Shown here piece after piece: positions 8,563 to 63,875 of a stretch of 64,000 bases of DNA. The position numbers and the translations under genes were made by a program. Positions within the stretch are counted from its first letter, which is position 1. Each line of letters begins with the position of its first letter. This DNA comes from Aquificota bacterium (GTDB lineage Bacteria; Aquificota; Aquificia; Aquificales; Aquificaceae): NCBI GenBank assembly GCA_018771605.1, contig CP076324.1, positions 868,001 through 932,000 on the forward strand. Reading direction: 5' to 3'. Below the pieces are notes generated by a model. It ran no database searches, was not told the DNA's origin, and saw only the letters and a list, made by a program, of their open reading frames with translations.

Positions 8563-8589
8563 ATAAGCTCAATTATACCAAAAAGCCTC

Positions 8590-8643
8590 TTAACAAAATC
8601 TTAACCAAACCTTAACCCAGTCTTAACAAAAGGTGGATATGCT
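8590..8643 (+). promoter_or_regulatory. Pho-box-like tandem operator and -10 element
   Basis: Four direct repeats TTAACA, TTAACC, TTAACC and TTAACA start at 8590, 8601, 8612 and 8623, each exactly 11 bp apart. This is the geometry of PhoP/PhoB response-regulator sites (TT(A/T/C)ACA with 5-bp spacers in Bacillus PhoP; 11-bp tandem repeats in PhoB boxes). A plausible -10 box TATGCT (8638-8643) follows the last repeat by 9 bp, so bound regulator would replace a -35 box. The downstream operon ends in phoD, which supports a phosphate-starvation switch. The sequence shows the repeat pattern; the regulator identity is inferred. Confidence 0.75.
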
Positions 8644-8667
8644 TATGGTAAAGGTAGGAGGTGTGCC

Positions 8668-9492
8668 ATGGTTAGAGTAATATACAGTTTGTTTATTCTG
8701 ACCGTTGCTTTGCTCGTATCTTCCTGTGGGGGAGGCTTTGGCGGAGTGAGCTCCTCCCTTTTGGAGAACCCCAAGCCAGACTTTAGCATAAGCCTAAACC
8801 CCAACACTTTGAGTGTGCAAGCAGGACAAAGTACAAACACCACCCTAACCATCACTCCCCAGTTTGGTTTTAGCGGAAATGTGGCCCTAAGCCTTAACCT
8901 TACTACAAAAACATTATACCGTGTGGCTTACATAAACGGCTACTTTGTGGCCATGGGTCAAAATGGCACCATACTGGTGTGCAATGCAAACACATCCGAC
9001 TGTAGGCAAGGTGCAAGCTGGAGCTTAAAAACAAGCGGGACAACCCAAACTCTTGAGTGGCTCATACACGATGGACAAAGGTATGTTATGGTTGGAAATG
9101 GTGGCACAGTTCTTACCTCTTCAGACCTTAACACATGGACTAATGCAAATGCCAACTTTGGTGGAGATACACCAAACCTTTGGGGCATAGCATACATAAA
9201 CGGCAGGTATGTAGCAGTAAGCAACAACAACAATAAGGTTTATCTATCCCAAGACCTTAGCGTATGGACCAGCCCATACACTGCACAACAAAGGCTAACC
9301 TTTGTGCTTAAAGTTAACGACCTTTTGCTTGCTACAGGAGATGGTGGCACCATACTTAGGTCCACCGACGGTGGCCAAAGCTGGACGCTGGCCAACACAG
9401 GAACAAGCAACAAAGTCAATTTTGTATCAGACTGTGAAAGCCTGCTTATAGCTGTGGGAGATGGTGGCACCGTACTGACATCAAGGAGGTAG
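8668..9492 (+). CDS. Lipoprotein with Ycf48/BNR-like beta-propeller repeats
   Basis: A 274-residue exported lipoprotein. A signal peptide ends in the lipobox LVSSC (Cys around residue 20). Next comes a short segment of bacterial Ig-like character (ISLNPNTLSVQAGQS). The rest consists of repeats such as VMVGNGGTVLTSSDLNTWT and LLATGDGGTILRSTDGGQSW, a Ycf48/sortilin-type propeller signature. Only four to five blades are visible, so the propeller may be incomplete. A strong Shine-Dalgarno (TAGGAGGTG) sets the ATG. It is the first gene after the Pho-box-like site and lies 6 bases from the TonB receptor gene, suggesting a surface or periplasmic accessory to uptake. Its exact function is unknown. 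Confidence 0.75.
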   Translation: MVRVIYSLFILTVALLVSSCGGGFGGVSSSLLENPKPDFSISLNPNTLSVQAGQSTNTTLTITPQFGFSGNVALSLNLTTKTLYRVAYINGYFVAMGQNGTILVCNANTSDCRQGASWSLKTSGTTQTLEWLIHDGQRYVMVGNGGTVLTSSDLNTWTNANANFGGDTPNLWGIAYINGRYVAVSNNNNKVYLSQDLSVWTSPYTAQQRLTFVLKVNDLLLATGDGGTILRSTDGGQSWTLANTGTSNKVNFVSDCESLLIAVGDGGTVLTSRR

Positions 9493-9498
9493 ATTGCC

Positions 9499-11757
9499 AT
9501 GACAAAAAGGATTGTGCTTCTGAGCGGTATCTTCTGTGTGGGTGTGGCCATTGCTCAAGAGGCTCCAAGGATAAAAATACAGGTGCAAGAGGAAAAGGAA
9601 AGGGAGGCTCCTGAAATACCAGTGGAAAGGAAAAAGGCAAAGCCAAAGACGGAGACAACGGTAAAGGAAAAGGAGCTTCAAAGGGGTACTGGCGCAGGCG
9701 GAGTGAATGTGTTTAGAGCTATAGAGCTAACACCTTCCTTGAACGTTCAAACGGACGATGCCTACGGCCTTGGTGGTGGTTCCGTTAGGCTCAGAGGCTT
9801 TGATAACACCCAGATAGGCATAAGCATAGATGATATGCCACTAAACGATTCTGGAAACTTTGCCATATACCCACACGAGTATGCGGACGTAGAAAACTTA
9901 GAGAGCATTACCATAGAGAGGGGTGCGGTCAGCAAAAAGAGCCCCTTCTATACAGAGGTGGGAGGAGCCATAAGGATAAGGACAAAGCCACCCGCCAACG
10001 AGTTTGGTATTACCATCTTCCCAAAGTTTGGCACCAACGAGTTTAGAAAGTATTTCTTCAGGGTGGATACGGGTAGGCTACCCTTTGGTATTAGGGCCTT
10101 TGGCTCCTACTCCCATACGGAGGCGGACAAGTGGAAAGGGCCGGGCAAGCATCCAGACTTTAGAGACCACTATACCATAGGCATTACCCAAAACTTGGGC
10201 AGGCTCTTTTGGGAGTTCTACTACGACAAAAACACCCAGCTAAACTACTTCTACAGAGGGCTAAACTACCAGCAGGCCCAAAACTTGGACCAGTTCAGAA
10301 GGTTTGATTACAGCCCAAGCCTTATATTCCCCGGAGGAAACGGCCTTGTGCATAATAACCAGACCATAAGAGACAACAACGTAGCCTATTACAAGTTCTA
10401 CAAAAACCCTTACGACAACCAACAGCTAAGGGCCAACGTAGAGCTTGATATAACCAACTGGCTAAAGCTTACCTTTAAGCCCTACATGTGGATAGGAAGA
10501 GGAAGTGGAACAAGCGCCACAACTTTCACAAGCGGTGGCAACACCTACATAGCCTTCAGAGAATCCTTTAACTACACCGACAGGCCCGGAGCCATCCTAA
10601 ACCTAAACTTTAAAAGTTCTTATGGTGAGTTTACCTTGGGCTATTGGTATGAGAGGGCAGAGCTAAAACAGTGGCAACCCTCCTTCCCAGTGAGGGTACA
10701 GCCCGACGGCTCTTACACTCTGCTTATTAATACCTTAGGCACGCCCAGCTTTAGGTACAACTATATCCAAAAGACCATAACCACCACTAACACACCCTTC
10801 ATCTTCTATGAAGCCCCCGAGCTTTTGGGCAGGCTTGACATAAACGCAGGCATAAGGTTTGCACAGGTAAAGAGAGAATTTACCAACTACAACACTACAG
10901 GCCTTCCCTACATGCCCGAGGATGATATATTTGACCATCCAAACCTCACCAAGGACCCAAGACTTTCCTACTCAAAAACCTACAGGAAGGTGTTGTTTAA
11001 CTTTGGAGTAGGTTACAAACTCACCGACCACATATACCCATATTTTGCCTTCTCCCAAAACTTCAGAGTGCCACCCAACTTTATAGGCACCATACCAAAC
11101 AATGTAGATGCCCAGTTTGTTATAAACCAGCTAAAGCCGGAAGAGTCGGTCAACTACGACCTTGGCGTGCGTTTTGACTTTGACAAGCTTTATGTGGTGC
11201 CAGCCATCTATTACACCGATTACAAAAACAGGCTTATAAGGATTGCAGACCCCAACGACCCGAACTTGGTCTACCTTAGGAATGCAGGAAAGGTAAAGGC
11301 CTACGGCTTTGAACTGGAAGTGGGTGCAAAACCCTTCAAAGACCTAAGCCTTTATGGCTCTTACTCCTACAACGTGGCAGAATTCAAAGATGATTGCACC
11401 ACCCTTTCTACTGGCAATCCTGTGTGTGGTATAAGCGGCAACCAAGTTCCAGACACACCAAAACATATGTTTAAGCTTGGCATAGATTACAGAATATTTG
11501 GCTTTAATATAAGGCCTTCTTTGCAGTACATAGGCTCAAGGTATGGAACGGTAGACAACAAACAAAAGGTTAGCTCTTACACCCTTATAAACCTTTCTGT
11601 GGACAGAAGAATAACAAAGAACTTCACCCTCTACTTTGATGTGATAAACCTAACGGATAAAAAGTACATAGGCAGGATATCGCCGGGTGAAACCTCTGGA
11701 ACCTACTATGTGGGCGCTCCCTTCACCTTTTCTGTAGGACTAAGAGGGAGGTTTTAA
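9499..11757 (+). CDS. TonB-dependent outer-membrane receptor
   Basis: A 752-residue outer-membrane protein with a signal peptide (cleavage near AIAQ-EAP). A plug domain follows (residues about 60-165; GGSVRLRGFDNTQIGISIDDMP and ENLESITIERGAV), then a beta-barrel ending in the aromatic-rich VGLRGRF terminus. A Glu/Lys-rich spacer before the plug may hold the TonB box. Conserved barrel segments include the PEESVNYDLGVRF and VSSYTLINLSVDR types. Its place between a Pho-box-like site and exbBD-tonB-phoD suggests uptake of a phosphorus compound rather than a siderophore. The substrate is inferred only from context. Confidence 0.92.
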   Translation: MTKRIVLLSGIFCVGVAIAQEAPRIKIQVQEEKEREAPEIPVERKKAKPKTETTVKEKELQRGTGAGGVNVFRAIELTPSLNVQTDDAYGLGGGSVRLRGFDNTQIGISIDDMPLNDSGNFAIYPHEYADVENLESITIERGAVSKKSPFYTEVGGAIRIRTKPPANEFGITIFPKFGTNEFRKYFFRVDTGRLPFGIRAFGSYSHTEADKWKGPGKHPDFRDHYTIGITQNLGRLFWEFYYDKNTQLNYFYRGLNYQQAQNLDQFRRFDYSPSLIFPGGNGLVHNNQTIRDNNVAYYKFYKNPYDNQQLRANVELDITNWLKLTFKPYMWIGRGSGTSATTFTSGGNTYIAFRESFNYTDRPGAILNLNFKSSYGEFTLGYWYERAELKQWQPSFPVRVQPDGSYTLLINTLGTPSFRYNYIQKTITTTNTPFIFYEAPELLGRLDINAGIRFAQVKREFTNYNTTGLPYMPEDDIFDHPNLTKDPRLSYSKTYRKVLFNFGVGYKLTDHIYPYFAFSQNFRVPPNFIGTIPNNVDAQFVINQLKPEESVNYDLGVRFDFDKLYVVPAIYYTDYKNRLIRIADPNDPNLVYLRNAGKVKAYGFELEVGAKPFKDLSLYGSYSYNVAEFKDDCTTLSTGNPVCGISGNQVPDTPKHMFKLGIDYRIFGFNIRPSLQYIGSRYGTVDNKQKVSSYTLINLSVDRRITKNFTLYFDVINLTDKKYIGRISPGETSGTYYVGAPFTFSVGLRGRF

Positions 11758-11759
11758 GC

Positions 11760-12203
11760 ATGTTGCTGGATCTTATCCATAAGGGAGTTTTTGGACTGAT
11801 GCTTTTGATCTTCACCTTTGGCAACTATTTAGTGGCTATGAACTTCTTCCAGCTTAAAAGAAGGCCCAACAGTCCAGCGGACAAAAGGCTTGAGCATGCA
11901 GAGTCTATAAGAAGGAGGCTATGGTTTTTGGACTTTGCAGCCACCGTCTCTCCCATAGTGGGCCTTTTGGGCACCGTATTGGCCCTTATAATAGCCTTTC
12001 AACAGCTTGCCGCAAAAGGTGTGAGCGGTGCAGGTGAGATAAGCGCAGCCATAGGCACAGCCCTTTGGGCCACAGCCCTCGGTATAGCCATGTCCCTCTG
12101 GTTTTACTTCTTCTTCAAGTTCTTCCATTCCAAAGTATCTTCCATAAAAGAGGAAGTAAAGCTTGAGCTTCTAAGGTCCCTTTTGGAGGAAGGCAATGAA
12201 TAA
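11760..12203 (+). CDS. exbB: ExbB/TolQ/MotA-type proton channel subunit
   Basis: A 147-residue inner-membrane protein with three hydrophobic segments. The core ExbB signature is visible: DFAATVSPIVGLLGTVLALIIAFQ and GEISAAIGTALWATALGIAMS. It is shorter than E. coli ExbB (about 240 residues), lacking the N-terminal periplasmic extension and part of the cytoplasmic loop. Together with ExbD and TonB from the next two genes it would couple proton flow to transport through the adjacent receptor. It starts 2 bases after the receptor stop and overlaps exbD by 8 bases. Confidence 0.9.
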   Translation: MLLDLIHKGVFGLMLLIFTFGNYLVAMNFFQLKRRPNSPADKRLEHAESIRRRLWFLDFAATVSPIVGLLGTVLALIIAFQQLAAKGVSGAGEISAAIGTALWATALGIAMSLWFYFFFKFFHSKVSSIKEEVKLELLRSLLEEGNE

Positions 12204-12618
12204 AAAGGCTTTACTTTTACTGCTTATGGAGGAGGAACATCAGAAGGAAGAAATACAAATAATACCTATGATAGACGTAATGCTGTTTTTGTTGGTCTTT
12301 TTCATGGTCTATACCCTAAACGTTTTTCCCATGATGCTACAAGAGATAAAAGTGCCTACCTCTTCCACGGTGCAGAGGAAGGACCTCAGAGAACCTATCA
12401 AAGTGTATATATCCAAAGATGGAAGAGTCCTTCTGGAAAACAGGGAGGAGGGTCTACAGGCCCTCAAAAACTACCTAAGGAATGTGCAAGATAAAGAAAA
12501 GGCCACCGTTCTAATAGTGGGAGATAAGGAAGTGAACCTGCAAAAAGTTATAGAGGTTATAGATGCCATAAAGGAATCGGGCATATACAACATAGGCATC
12601 GTGGGCGACAAGAAATGA
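12196..12618 (+). CDS. exbD: ExbD/TolR-family protein
   Basis: A 140-residue protein with one membrane segment near the N-terminus. The key motif IIPMIDVMLFLLVFFMV contains the proton-carrying aspartate (IDVML). A periplasmic domain ends in QKVIEVIDAIKESGIYNIGIVGDK, the standard ExbD C-terminal fold. It overlaps both neighbours (8 bases with exbB, 4 bases with tonB), so the subunits are translationally coupled. Confidence 0.92.
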   Translation: MNKKALLLLLMEEEHQKEEIQIIPMIDVMLFLLVFFMVYTLNVFPMMLQEIKVPTSSTVQRKDLREPIKVYISKDGRVLLENREEGLQALKNYLRNVQDKEKATVLIVGDKEVNLQKVIEVIDAIKESGIYNIGIVGDKK

Positions 12619-13364
12619 TCCTCAGAGAAGACAGGCCCAAAGCCCTTGCTCTTTCCATAAGCCTTTCCCTCCTCTCTTCCTTTGTTATCTCTTGGCTTAT
12701 GTCTGTTAGCAAAATGACCTTTCCAAGTGGTGGATCCAAGCCCGTAGAGATCATCCTCACCCTACCACCCACACAGGAGACTACAAACCCAAAAGAATCA
12801 AGACCTCAAAAAACACCACCCAAAAGGCAGGAGGTTAAAAAGGTTATAAAAAATGTTCCCCAAAAGCAGGAAGTAAGACAAGAGCCTGTGGCACCACCAA
12901 AGGAGGCCATACCCATAGCAGAAAAGGCCCAAACACAAATTACAGCCAGAGAAGAAACAAAAGAAGACACTTCAAATAAAGAGAAGGAAACAAGCCAAGA
13001 GAAGCCTCAAAAAGAAGCGCAGGTAGAGAGGCCACAGGTCAAAAGGGAGCTACCAACGGCCAAAAAGGAAGAGTCTAAGGACCAAATGATAGCCTACTAC
13101 AGTCAAGTAAAGGCCATAATTGAGAGGAATAAAAGATACCCAGAGGAGGCAAAAAGAAGGGGTGAGGAAGGCACTCTTGTGGTAAGGCTAAGGATAAACT
13201 CGGAAGGAAGGATAGAAGATATAAGGATAATAAAGAGCAGTCAAAGCAGGTATTTGGACGAAGGAACCATAAGAATGTTAAGGTCCCTTGCCAAGCTTCC
13301 ACCACCCCCAAAGGCCCCCTTGGAGCTTGAAATAGAAATAGACTACCGCCTTGGAGGAGGATAG
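12615..13364 (+). CDS. tonB: TonB energy transducer
   Basis: A 249-residue protein with an N-terminal membrane anchor (residues about 11-30). A long charged and proline-containing periplasmic linker (about 55-155) follows, then a C-terminal TonB domain: IIERNKRYPEEAKRRGEEGT, VVRLRINSEGRIEDIRIIKSS and LPPPPKAPLELEIEIDY. It would contact the TonB box of the receptor encoded two genes upstream. It overlaps exbD by 4 bases and is followed by phoD after 2 bases, so the Ton module is dedicated to this operon. Confidence 0.92.
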   Translation: MILREDRPKALALSISLSLLSSFVISWLMSVSKMTFPSGGSKPVEIILTLPPTQETTNPKESRPQKTPPKRQEVKKVIKNVPQKQEVRQEPVAPPKEAIPIAEKAQTQITAREETKEDTSNKEKETSQEKPQKEAQVERPQVKRELPTAKKEESKDQMIAYYSQVKAIIERNKRYPEEAKRRGEEGTLVVRLRINSEGRIEDIRIIKSSQSRYLDEGTIRMLRSLAKLPPPPKAPLELEIEIDYRLGGG

Positions 13365-13366
13365 AT

Positions 13367-14944
13367 ATGATCACAAGAAGGGAGTTCTTGGAAGGTAGCC
13401 TTGCCACCCTAATGCTTTTGTCCTTGAACCGCCTTAGCTTTTCCATGGATACGGAGGAGGTATTCCCTCAAGGTGTGGCAAGCGCAGACCCAACGCACAC
13501 CGGCGCCATCCTTTGGACCCGTATAAACCCAAAGGTGCATGAAAGGATGAAAAAGGACCTAATCCTACAAATATCGGAAGATATGGACTTCAAAAGGCTT
13601 GTATTTTCTGGAAGACTACCATGGGACCGCATATCATCCAAAGATGACCACACGGTAAGGATAGACCTGGAAGGAAAATTGCAACCCGGAAGAACCTATT
13701 ACTACAGGTTTGTTTATGCAGATGTGCCTTCTATGATAGGAAGGTTAAAAACTCTTCCAGAGGAGGCACAAGATATAAGCATAGCCTTTGCCACATGCCA
13801 GAACTACGCCGATGGCTACTTTACAGCCTACAGGCATATGGCCCAAGAGGACCTTCAATTGGTGGTTCATCTGGGAGACTTTATATACGAAAAGATATAC
13901 GGCCCACCAAGGGTGGCGGGCAGGCTTTTGGAGCTTCCGTCAGGGTCAAACATAGTCCAAAACTTGGAAGATTATAGATACTTATACAGAACCTACCTTT
14001 CCGACCCAGACATCAGACTTGCCAGAGCCATGCATACCTTTGTGCACACTTGGGATGACCATGAGTTTCTAAACGACTACTACTACAATTACCAAAGGGA
14101 ATACTGGATTGGAGACTATCCCATCAGAGAAAGGGAAAAATTGCTACAGCTTAGGCTGGATTCCATAAAGGCTTGGCTTGAGTATATACCAGCCAGAGTA
14201 AAGACAAACTTTCAAAACAGAGACCCCTTACTATGGATAACCATCTACCGCGACTTTAAAATAGGAAGCTTGGCCCATCTTATAATGACCGATGGAAGAA
14301 GCTACAGAGACAAACAGCCTTGCAGAGGAAAGTATGGTGCACCCGGCTGTGCAGAACAGTATAGGACTACCATGCTTGGCCAAGACCAACTAAGATGGTT
14401 CTTGAAAAAGTTAAAAGAAGATAAGTTTGTTTGGAAGGTTTGGGGCAATGATGTGCAGTTTTCTCAAAGCCTTGTGGATGGCAAGTTTGGTTCTTTGGAT
14501 GCTTGGGATGGTTATGCGGGCGAAAGGCAAAAAATACTGGACTTTTTAAAGAGGGAAGGCATGAAAAACTTACTAATCTCAACCGGAGACAGACATGCTA
14601 CATTTATAGCGGAGATTCCAGACAGCTATCAAGAGCCAAAGGAAGTGCTTGGTGCAGAGTTTATGACGCCAGCCATATCTTCTGTTAATTCAAAAGAGAT
14701 GGGTTGGTGGAAAAGAAACTGGCCAAATTATACTTCTATAGAAGAGGTAGAAAGGGCAGAAATGCTACAAAACCCTTGGATAAAACATCTCAATATGAAA
14801 AACTGGGGCTATTCTGTGCTTAATCTAAATAGAGATAGGGCCAGAGTAATAGTATATACGGTCAACAAATACAGAAAGGATGCGCCTAAGGAAGTGGATG
14901 CAGAGTTTGTTTATACCTACGGAAGGCTGGAGAAATATGGCTAA
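13367..14944 (+). CDS. phoD: PhoD-family alkaline phosphatase/phosphodiesterase
   Basis: A 525-residue exported hydrolase that releases phosphate from phosphomono- and diesters using Ca/Fe. A twin-arginine signal (ITRREFLEGSLATLMLLS) indicates folded export by Tat. An N-terminal Ig-like PhoD domain follows (FPQGVASADPTHTGAILWTRI). The metallophosphatase core has metal-ligand motifs VVHLGDFIYE, HTWDDHEFLND, WGNDVQFSQ and LLISTGDRHATF. PhoD genes are classic Pho-regulon members, which agrees with the Pho-box-like repeats at the head of this operon. Its product would feed phosphate to the cell in concert with the TonB uptake system. Confidence 0.93.
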   Translation: MITRREFLEGSLATLMLLSLNRLSFSMDTEEVFPQGVASADPTHTGAILWTRINPKVHERMKKDLILQISEDMDFKRLVFSGRLPWDRISSKDDHTVRIDLEGKLQPGRTYYYRFVYADVPSMIGRLKTLPEEAQDISIAFATCQNYADGYFTAYRHMAQEDLQLVVHLGDFIYEKIYGPPRVAGRLLELPSGSNIVQNLEDYRYLYRTYLSDPDIRLARAMHTFVHTWDDHEFLNDYYYNYQREYWIGDYPIREREKLLQLRLDSIKAWLEYIPARVKTNFQNRDPLLWITIYRDFKIGSLAHLIMTDGRSYRDKQPCRGKYGAPGCAEQYRTTMLGQDQLRWFLKKLKEDKFVWKVWGNDVQFSQSLVDGKFGSLDAWDGYAGERQKILDFLKREGMKNLLISTGDRHATFIAEIPDSYQEPKEVLGAEFMTPAISSVNSKEMGWWKRNWPNYTSIEEVERAEMLQNPWIKHLNMKNWGYSVLNLNRDRARVIVYTVNKYRKDAPKEVDAEFVYTYGRLEKYG

Positions 14945-63832: not shown

Positions 63833-63875
63833 GGGTTTAATAAAATCTTAACAATAATCGTTTAAAATCAAAGCT

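Follow-up and report, generated by a model that had tools for sequence, protein, structure and literature searches.

Gene sets that link Ton-type uptake with phosphatases or phosphate starvation have been described in several bacteria. Acidithiobacilli carry a FecA3-ExbBD-TonB-SLP-PhoD cluster and Leptospirilla a FecA9-ExbBD-TonB-PhoB-SLP cluster (PMC2631029), while the phosphate utilisation systems (PUS) of Flavobacterium are TonB-dependent transporter loci with phosphatases that are induced by phosphate depletion (PMC8115612). In Pseudomonas aeruginosa, exbB2-exbD2-tonB4 (PA0693-PA0695) belongs to the sigma-VreI regulon (PMC7035377), and in Sphingobium fuliginis an organophosphate hydrolase-ExbBD-TonB complex was identified by co-purification (PMC7142613). 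Here, we describe an operon of this kind, encoding a lipoprotein, a TonB-dependent receptor, ExbB, ExbD, TonB and the phosphatase PhoD, in a 64-kb stretch (the window; positions 868001-932000) of the 1.72-Mb single-contig genome of a thermophilic Aquificota bacterium. We propose that it is a Pho-regulon operon that probably, though with considerable room for doubt, scavenges organic phosphorus by importing bulky phosphoesters. Because of the four precedents it is a further case of a known type; added here are direct evidence of a regulatory box, recurrence within a phylum and exchange of the phosphatase.

The Acidithiobacilli cluster likewise joins a TonB receptor and a Ton set of its own (ExbBD-TonB) to PhoD and a surface protein, and a phosphate link was proposed for it too. 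However, iron uptake was predicted and Fur control suggested there (PMC2631029), whereas the present operon is preceded by a Pho box and a Fur-like site was not seen; the comparison made here is one of gene content. PUS loci also hold a TonB-dependent transporter with phosphatases or phosphodiesterases, but they use a SusCD-type pair with a SusD lipoprotein and exbB is not mentioned for them (PMC8115612), whereas here ExbBD-TonB is dedicated and no SusD match was found in the operon. The P. aeruginosa genes similarly place Ton energy genes and a secreted alkaline phosphatase (lapA) in a phosphate-starvation regulon, yet they are uncharacterised, under sigma-factor control and linked to secretion genes (PMC7035377). 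Finally, the S. fuliginis complex pairs a phosphoesterase exported by twin-arginine translocation (Tat) with a Ton system and obtains phosphate from organophosphates (PMC7142613); there a physical complex was isolated, whereas here the association is one of genetic linkage, and the enzyme is unrelated.

The promoter region of the operon is bounded by the start codon of reverse-strand murB (8562) and the ATG of the lipoprotein gene (8668). Direct reading of the forward strand reveals four CTTAAC units with an exact 11-bp period (8589-8594, 8600-8605, 8611-8616 and 8622-8627; array 8589-8627), followed 10 nt past the last unit by the -10 element TATGCT (8638-8643). Both features agree with an earlier note on this DNA, made from the letters alone, in which the distance was given as 9 nt after TTAACA, equivalent to 10 nt after CTTAAC. 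The CTTAAC motif occurs 12 times on the forward and 9 times on the reverse strand of the window, and a run with the 11-bp period was found only at 8589-8627. For the exact four-unit array, base composition predicts about 5e-8 occurrences.

We then searched the whole genome for the three-unit repeat. Long clean arrays were present at only four sites: upstream of this operon, of a gene with an OprO/OprP phosphate-porin domain (PF07396), of phoX (PF05787, 506 bits), and of an operon encoding a DUF2334 protein and two glycosyltransferases. Two-unit boxes precede pstS (CTTAACCAAATCTTAAC, then 10 nt, then TAGAAT) and phoU (ATTAACCAAATCTTAAC, then 10 nt, then TAAAAT). The repeats thus stand before phoX, the OprO/P-like porin gene, pstS and phoU; the earlier note had suggested such a search, naming pstSCAB and phoBR. 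It had also named a genome lacking Pho two-component genes as grounds for rejecting its proposal, and this is not what we observe: besides pstSCAB (PstB 409 bits against a cut-off of 343) and phoU (227 bits against 130), the genome encodes a PhoB-like regulator and an orphan kinase. A Pit-type phosphate transporter was looked for in the genome and not found. The best PhoB match among four OmpR-type regulators is the gene at genome positions 1015192-1015863 (232.9 bits; curated PhoB cut-off 296.2), the only one of the four without an adjacent kinase, while the histidine kinase gene downstream of phoU lacks a neighbouring regulator gene. We infer that these two are partners, in which case the PhoB and PhoR functions would be encoded at separate places in this genome. 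As to their surroundings, phoU and the orphan kinase adjoin modABC-like genes (fetched locus L043:5853-8230), and the regulator is located about 10 kb from them, beside a metallophosphoesterase gene (L044:7193-7864).

Across the phylum, the exact three-unit pattern was detected in 35 of 136 Aquificota genomes and a reversed control pattern in none of the 136. We next considered 49 distinct arrays of two or more exact units; many of the arrays are orthologous and hence not independent events. In 45 of them TAnnnT lies exactly 10 nt past the last unit, and none of the other spacings tested accounts for more than 7. Such fixed spacing is what an activator standing in for a -35 element would be expected to need. 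A nearly identical repeat is known from cyanobacteria, where the SphR Pho box consists of 8-bp CTTAACCT repeats and 3-bp linkers, giving the same 11-bp period, and where phoD genes are among the predicted targets (PMC1906773); the two cases differ in phylum, and the regulator here is a PhoB match below its cut-off. We rejected chance as the origin of the repeats because the Pho genes share the box (with two units at pstS and phoU), the reversed control is empty and the 10-nt spacing to the -10 element is fixed. That CTTAAC repeats form the Pho box of this genome, and that the operon belongs to the predicted Pho regulon, is very well supported at the level of sequence. Phosphate control of the operon, taken alone, we regard as nearly certain. 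A search of open-access papers turned up no study of the Pho regulon in Aquificota; our data provide strong sequence evidence that this hot-spring and vent phylum has one, with a defined box.

The six forward-strand genes downstream of the box are separated by 6, 2, -8, -4 and 2 nt. They encode a lipoprotein (8668-9492; lipobox VSSC ending at C20, with about 4-5 short propeller-type, BNR/YCF48-like repeats), a TonB-dependent receptor with an N-terminal extension (9499-11757; PF00593 162 bits, PF07715 39 bits), ExbB (11760-12203; PF01618), ExbD (12196-12618; PF02472), TonB (12615-13364; PF03544, TIGR01352) and PhoD (13367-14944; PF09423 274 bits, PF16655 71 bits). Pfam places the last five well above cut-off, so the tightly packed operon proposed in the earlier note, with gaps of -8 to 6 nt, stands. 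Its description of the lipoprotein as propeller-like fared less clearly. The top fold matches of the AlphaFold2 model are beta-propellers, including YCF48 and BamB, but the mean predicted local distance difference test score (pLDDT) is 56 and the DUF6242 match (27.1 bits) falls under the cut-off of 29; a propeller fold is weakly supported by the model. This gene is absent from the orthologous operons of relatives. The parts of a TonB uptake system are complete: a receptor with plug and barrel, ExbB, ExbD, TonB and, by resemblance, a TonB-box-like stretch in the receptor (TETTV, residues 51-55). Since the genome encodes just two TonB receptors, and of its three ExbD-family proteins the other two belong to ExbB/ExbD sets that lie beside pilin-like genes or form a TolQR-type pair, a Ton system dedicated to this receptor, as previously suggested, is supported. 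PhoD starts with MITRREFLEG, a Tat-type sequence of which both arginines are invariant among relatives. It retains the metal-site motifs FATCQ, HLGDFIYE, WDDHE and TGDRHA, and alignment with 2YEQ confirmed that the Cys, Asp, Tyr, DDHE and GDxHA positions of the B. subtilis PhoD metal site are kept. With this start and these motifs, the enzyme is expected to be active in the periplasm or extracellularly. Its assignment is to the broad Pfam family only, as it scored 265.7 bits against the NCBIfam AlkPhosPhoDBac equivalog NF058638, missing the cut-off of 1000.

Taken together, these features suggest the following route. At low phosphate, a PhoB-type regulator would bind the 11-bp CTTAAC repeats, which would then replace the -35 element and turn the operon on. 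ExbB-ExbD-TonB would supply energy to the receptor, which would import into the periplasm a phosphorus compound of a size that porins would not admit, such as a phosphodiester or similar organophosphate. There, Tat-exported PhoD would hydrolyse the imported compound, and the phosphate would then be taken into the cell by PstSCAB, whose genes are preceded by the same type of box.

The gene order argues that receptor and phosphatase belong together. PhoD relatives were found in 26 of the 136 Aquificota genomes and the receptor in 16. The order receptor-exbB-exbD-tonB-phoD could be read in eleven genomes (G026, G027, G028, G045, G052, G053, G054, G099, G101, G103 and G104), although phoD is cut by the contig end in G103 and the receptor frame is broken in G026; in G098 and G038, contig ends leave only the distal part of the operon visible. 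The order is thus shared by several genera from two families of Aquificota, with gaps near zero, and receptor orthologues (55-67% identity) lie upstream of exbBD-tonB-phoD wherever contigs permit the check. A strict two-unit box with -10 element, a form present in 0.7% of random 200-bp windows of the fetched loci, was found in 8 of the 11 operon promoters read. The other three are from close relatives (L101, L102 and L187), of which the first two show a degenerate box by eye. In G099 the operon sits between phoX and a porin gene, which is followed by pstSCAB and phoU. Synteny and box are therefore conserved in other Aquificota, in line with the comparison suggested in the earlier note, while its view that such a module is unusual, especially in this phylum, was overstated given this distribution and the published Acidithiobacilli and Flavobacterium parallels. 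Co-regulation without coupling could also account for a shared promoter: receptor and PhoD would both be useful at low phosphate yet have separate substrates, PhoD acting on small esters that enter via a Pho-controlled porin. The boxed phoD that stands alone in several genus-mates and the Pho-boxed OprO/P-like porin gene of this genome fit that explanation, but the constant order with near-zero gaps in two families does not, and we consider it quite unlikely.

Several imperfect copies were noted. G037 has a truncated phoD (L107:8218-8787), the broken receptor frame of G026 spans L104:4149-6008, and phoD of G099 contains an internal stop (L102:8281-9633) that reflects either an assembly error or a pseudogene. 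A contig labelled as a Thermodesulfobacteriota metagenome-assembled genome carries the receptor end, exbB (73%), exbD, tonB and phoD (57%) (L087:2-4292), and represents either an inter-phylum transfer or a misbinned contig.

In the proposed route, the ligand of the receptor is putative. The family and fold matches are mostly siderophore receptors, and taken alone would point to an ordinary siderophore system with unrelated or chance repeats upstream. These matches are not decisive, because all fall under curated cut-offs (157.8 bits for the TonB-dependent siderophore receptor family TIGR01783, cut-off 223.5) and identities in the fold search are 12-17%. Moreover, many TonB receptors match the receptor model (mean pLDDT 71) about equally well, without pointing to a ligand. 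We found no Fur-box-like site in the operon promoter (best match 11/19 against a shuffle average of 11.2). Together with the box at Pho genes, its distribution against the reversed control, its fixed spacing to the -10 element and its presence at the operon promoters of relatives, this makes a siderophore system with chance repeats very improbable, and we caution against annotating this protein as a siderophore receptor.

The main rival to phosphoester import is phosphate-controlled iron uptake, in which the cargo of the receptor would be chelated ferric iron, perhaps ferric phosphate, needed to make Fe3+-dependent PhoD and PhoX at low phosphate. The B. subtilis PhoD site binds Fe3+ and two Ca2+, PhoX likewise uses Fe3+ (PMC4223295), and the PhoD encoded here retains the Cys and Tyr positions. 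The similar Acidithiobacillus clusters were interpreted as phosphate-associated Fe(III) uptake (PMC2631029), and the siderophore-type matches of the receptor would agree with this. Iron is made somewhat less probable by the lack of an iron ATP-binding cassette (ABC) or Feo gene in the operon and of a Fur-like site in its promoter. The metal is also presumed to enter the enzyme in the cytoplasm, prior to Tat export (PMC4223295), which weakens, but does not remove, the need for imported iron. A further argument comes from G030, G031 and G033, which represent a different genus and in which the search for PhoD gave no match. There, a related receptor (44-47% identity) is adjoined by a second receptor and then exbB, exbD and tonB, and this second cassette adjoins a gene whose large product combines propeller repeats with a phosphoesterase domain (PF04185) of a family unrelated to PhoD. 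The box lies upstream of the second receptor in two of the three, and upstream of the opposite-strand phosphoesterase gene in the third. With the PF04185 protein in place of PhoD, a Ton cassette thus remains associated with a phosphoesterase across a change of enzyme family. We favour bulky phosphoesters as the imported substrate and view iron uptake as a serious but considerably less probable explanation.

Some observations weigh against phosphoester import. The nearest solved receptors, at low identity, are mainly siderophore receptors; several genus-mates have phoD without Ton genes, some with the box, so PhoD does not need the receptor; and the candidate regulator scores under the PhoB cut-off. 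Five distant homologues of the receptor on plasmids occur in mixed contexts: two, in favour of phosphoester import, adjoin phospholipase genes, and one, again unfavourably, adjoins an iron-type ABC transporter. In any case, a complete TonB system that is predicted to answer to phosphate and not to iron allows the long-standing question of what receptor-PhoD clusters import to be tested directly. More tentatively, and with less than even confidence, the phosphoester reading may extend to a general 'Pho-Ton cassette': a phosphate-starvation box governing a single receptor, the ExbBD-TonB motor that serves it and a phosphatase that can be exchanged (PhoD or the propeller-PF04185 enzyme). The phosphatase would work at the Ton complex and couple bulky-phosphoester import with hydrolysis, and the cassette would have spread between Aquificota families and possibly other phyla.

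Other Pho-type boxes were noted along the way. The boxed DUF2334 operon (L039:4869-8963; genome 1315868-1319962) has as its two glycosyltransferases a PHP/glycosyltransferase fusion and a separate glycosyltransferase, recurs in many of the relatives examined, and may make phosphorus-sparing glycolipids in starvation. In several genera, a box precedes genes for an E1-E2 type ATPase and two small proteins (L039:10193-13222, L172:288-3365, L191:4648-8296 and L192:705-4447). Within the window, a weak two-unit box (TTTAAT-N5-CTTAAC, then 10 nt, then TAAAAT; 63836-63868, L163:1837-2305) lies upstream of a gene of the PF01451 low-molecular-weight phosphatase family, possibly an arsenate reductase, which would suit arsenate entry via Pst. 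Finally, a clean two-unit box located about 4 kb ahead of pstS is followed by a run of small-protein genes and by genes for an Arf/Ras-like GTPase and a HEAT-repeat protein (L162:2823-5540; genome 1196822 onward), and G037 has a box at a gene neighbourhood resembling this one (L174:11914).

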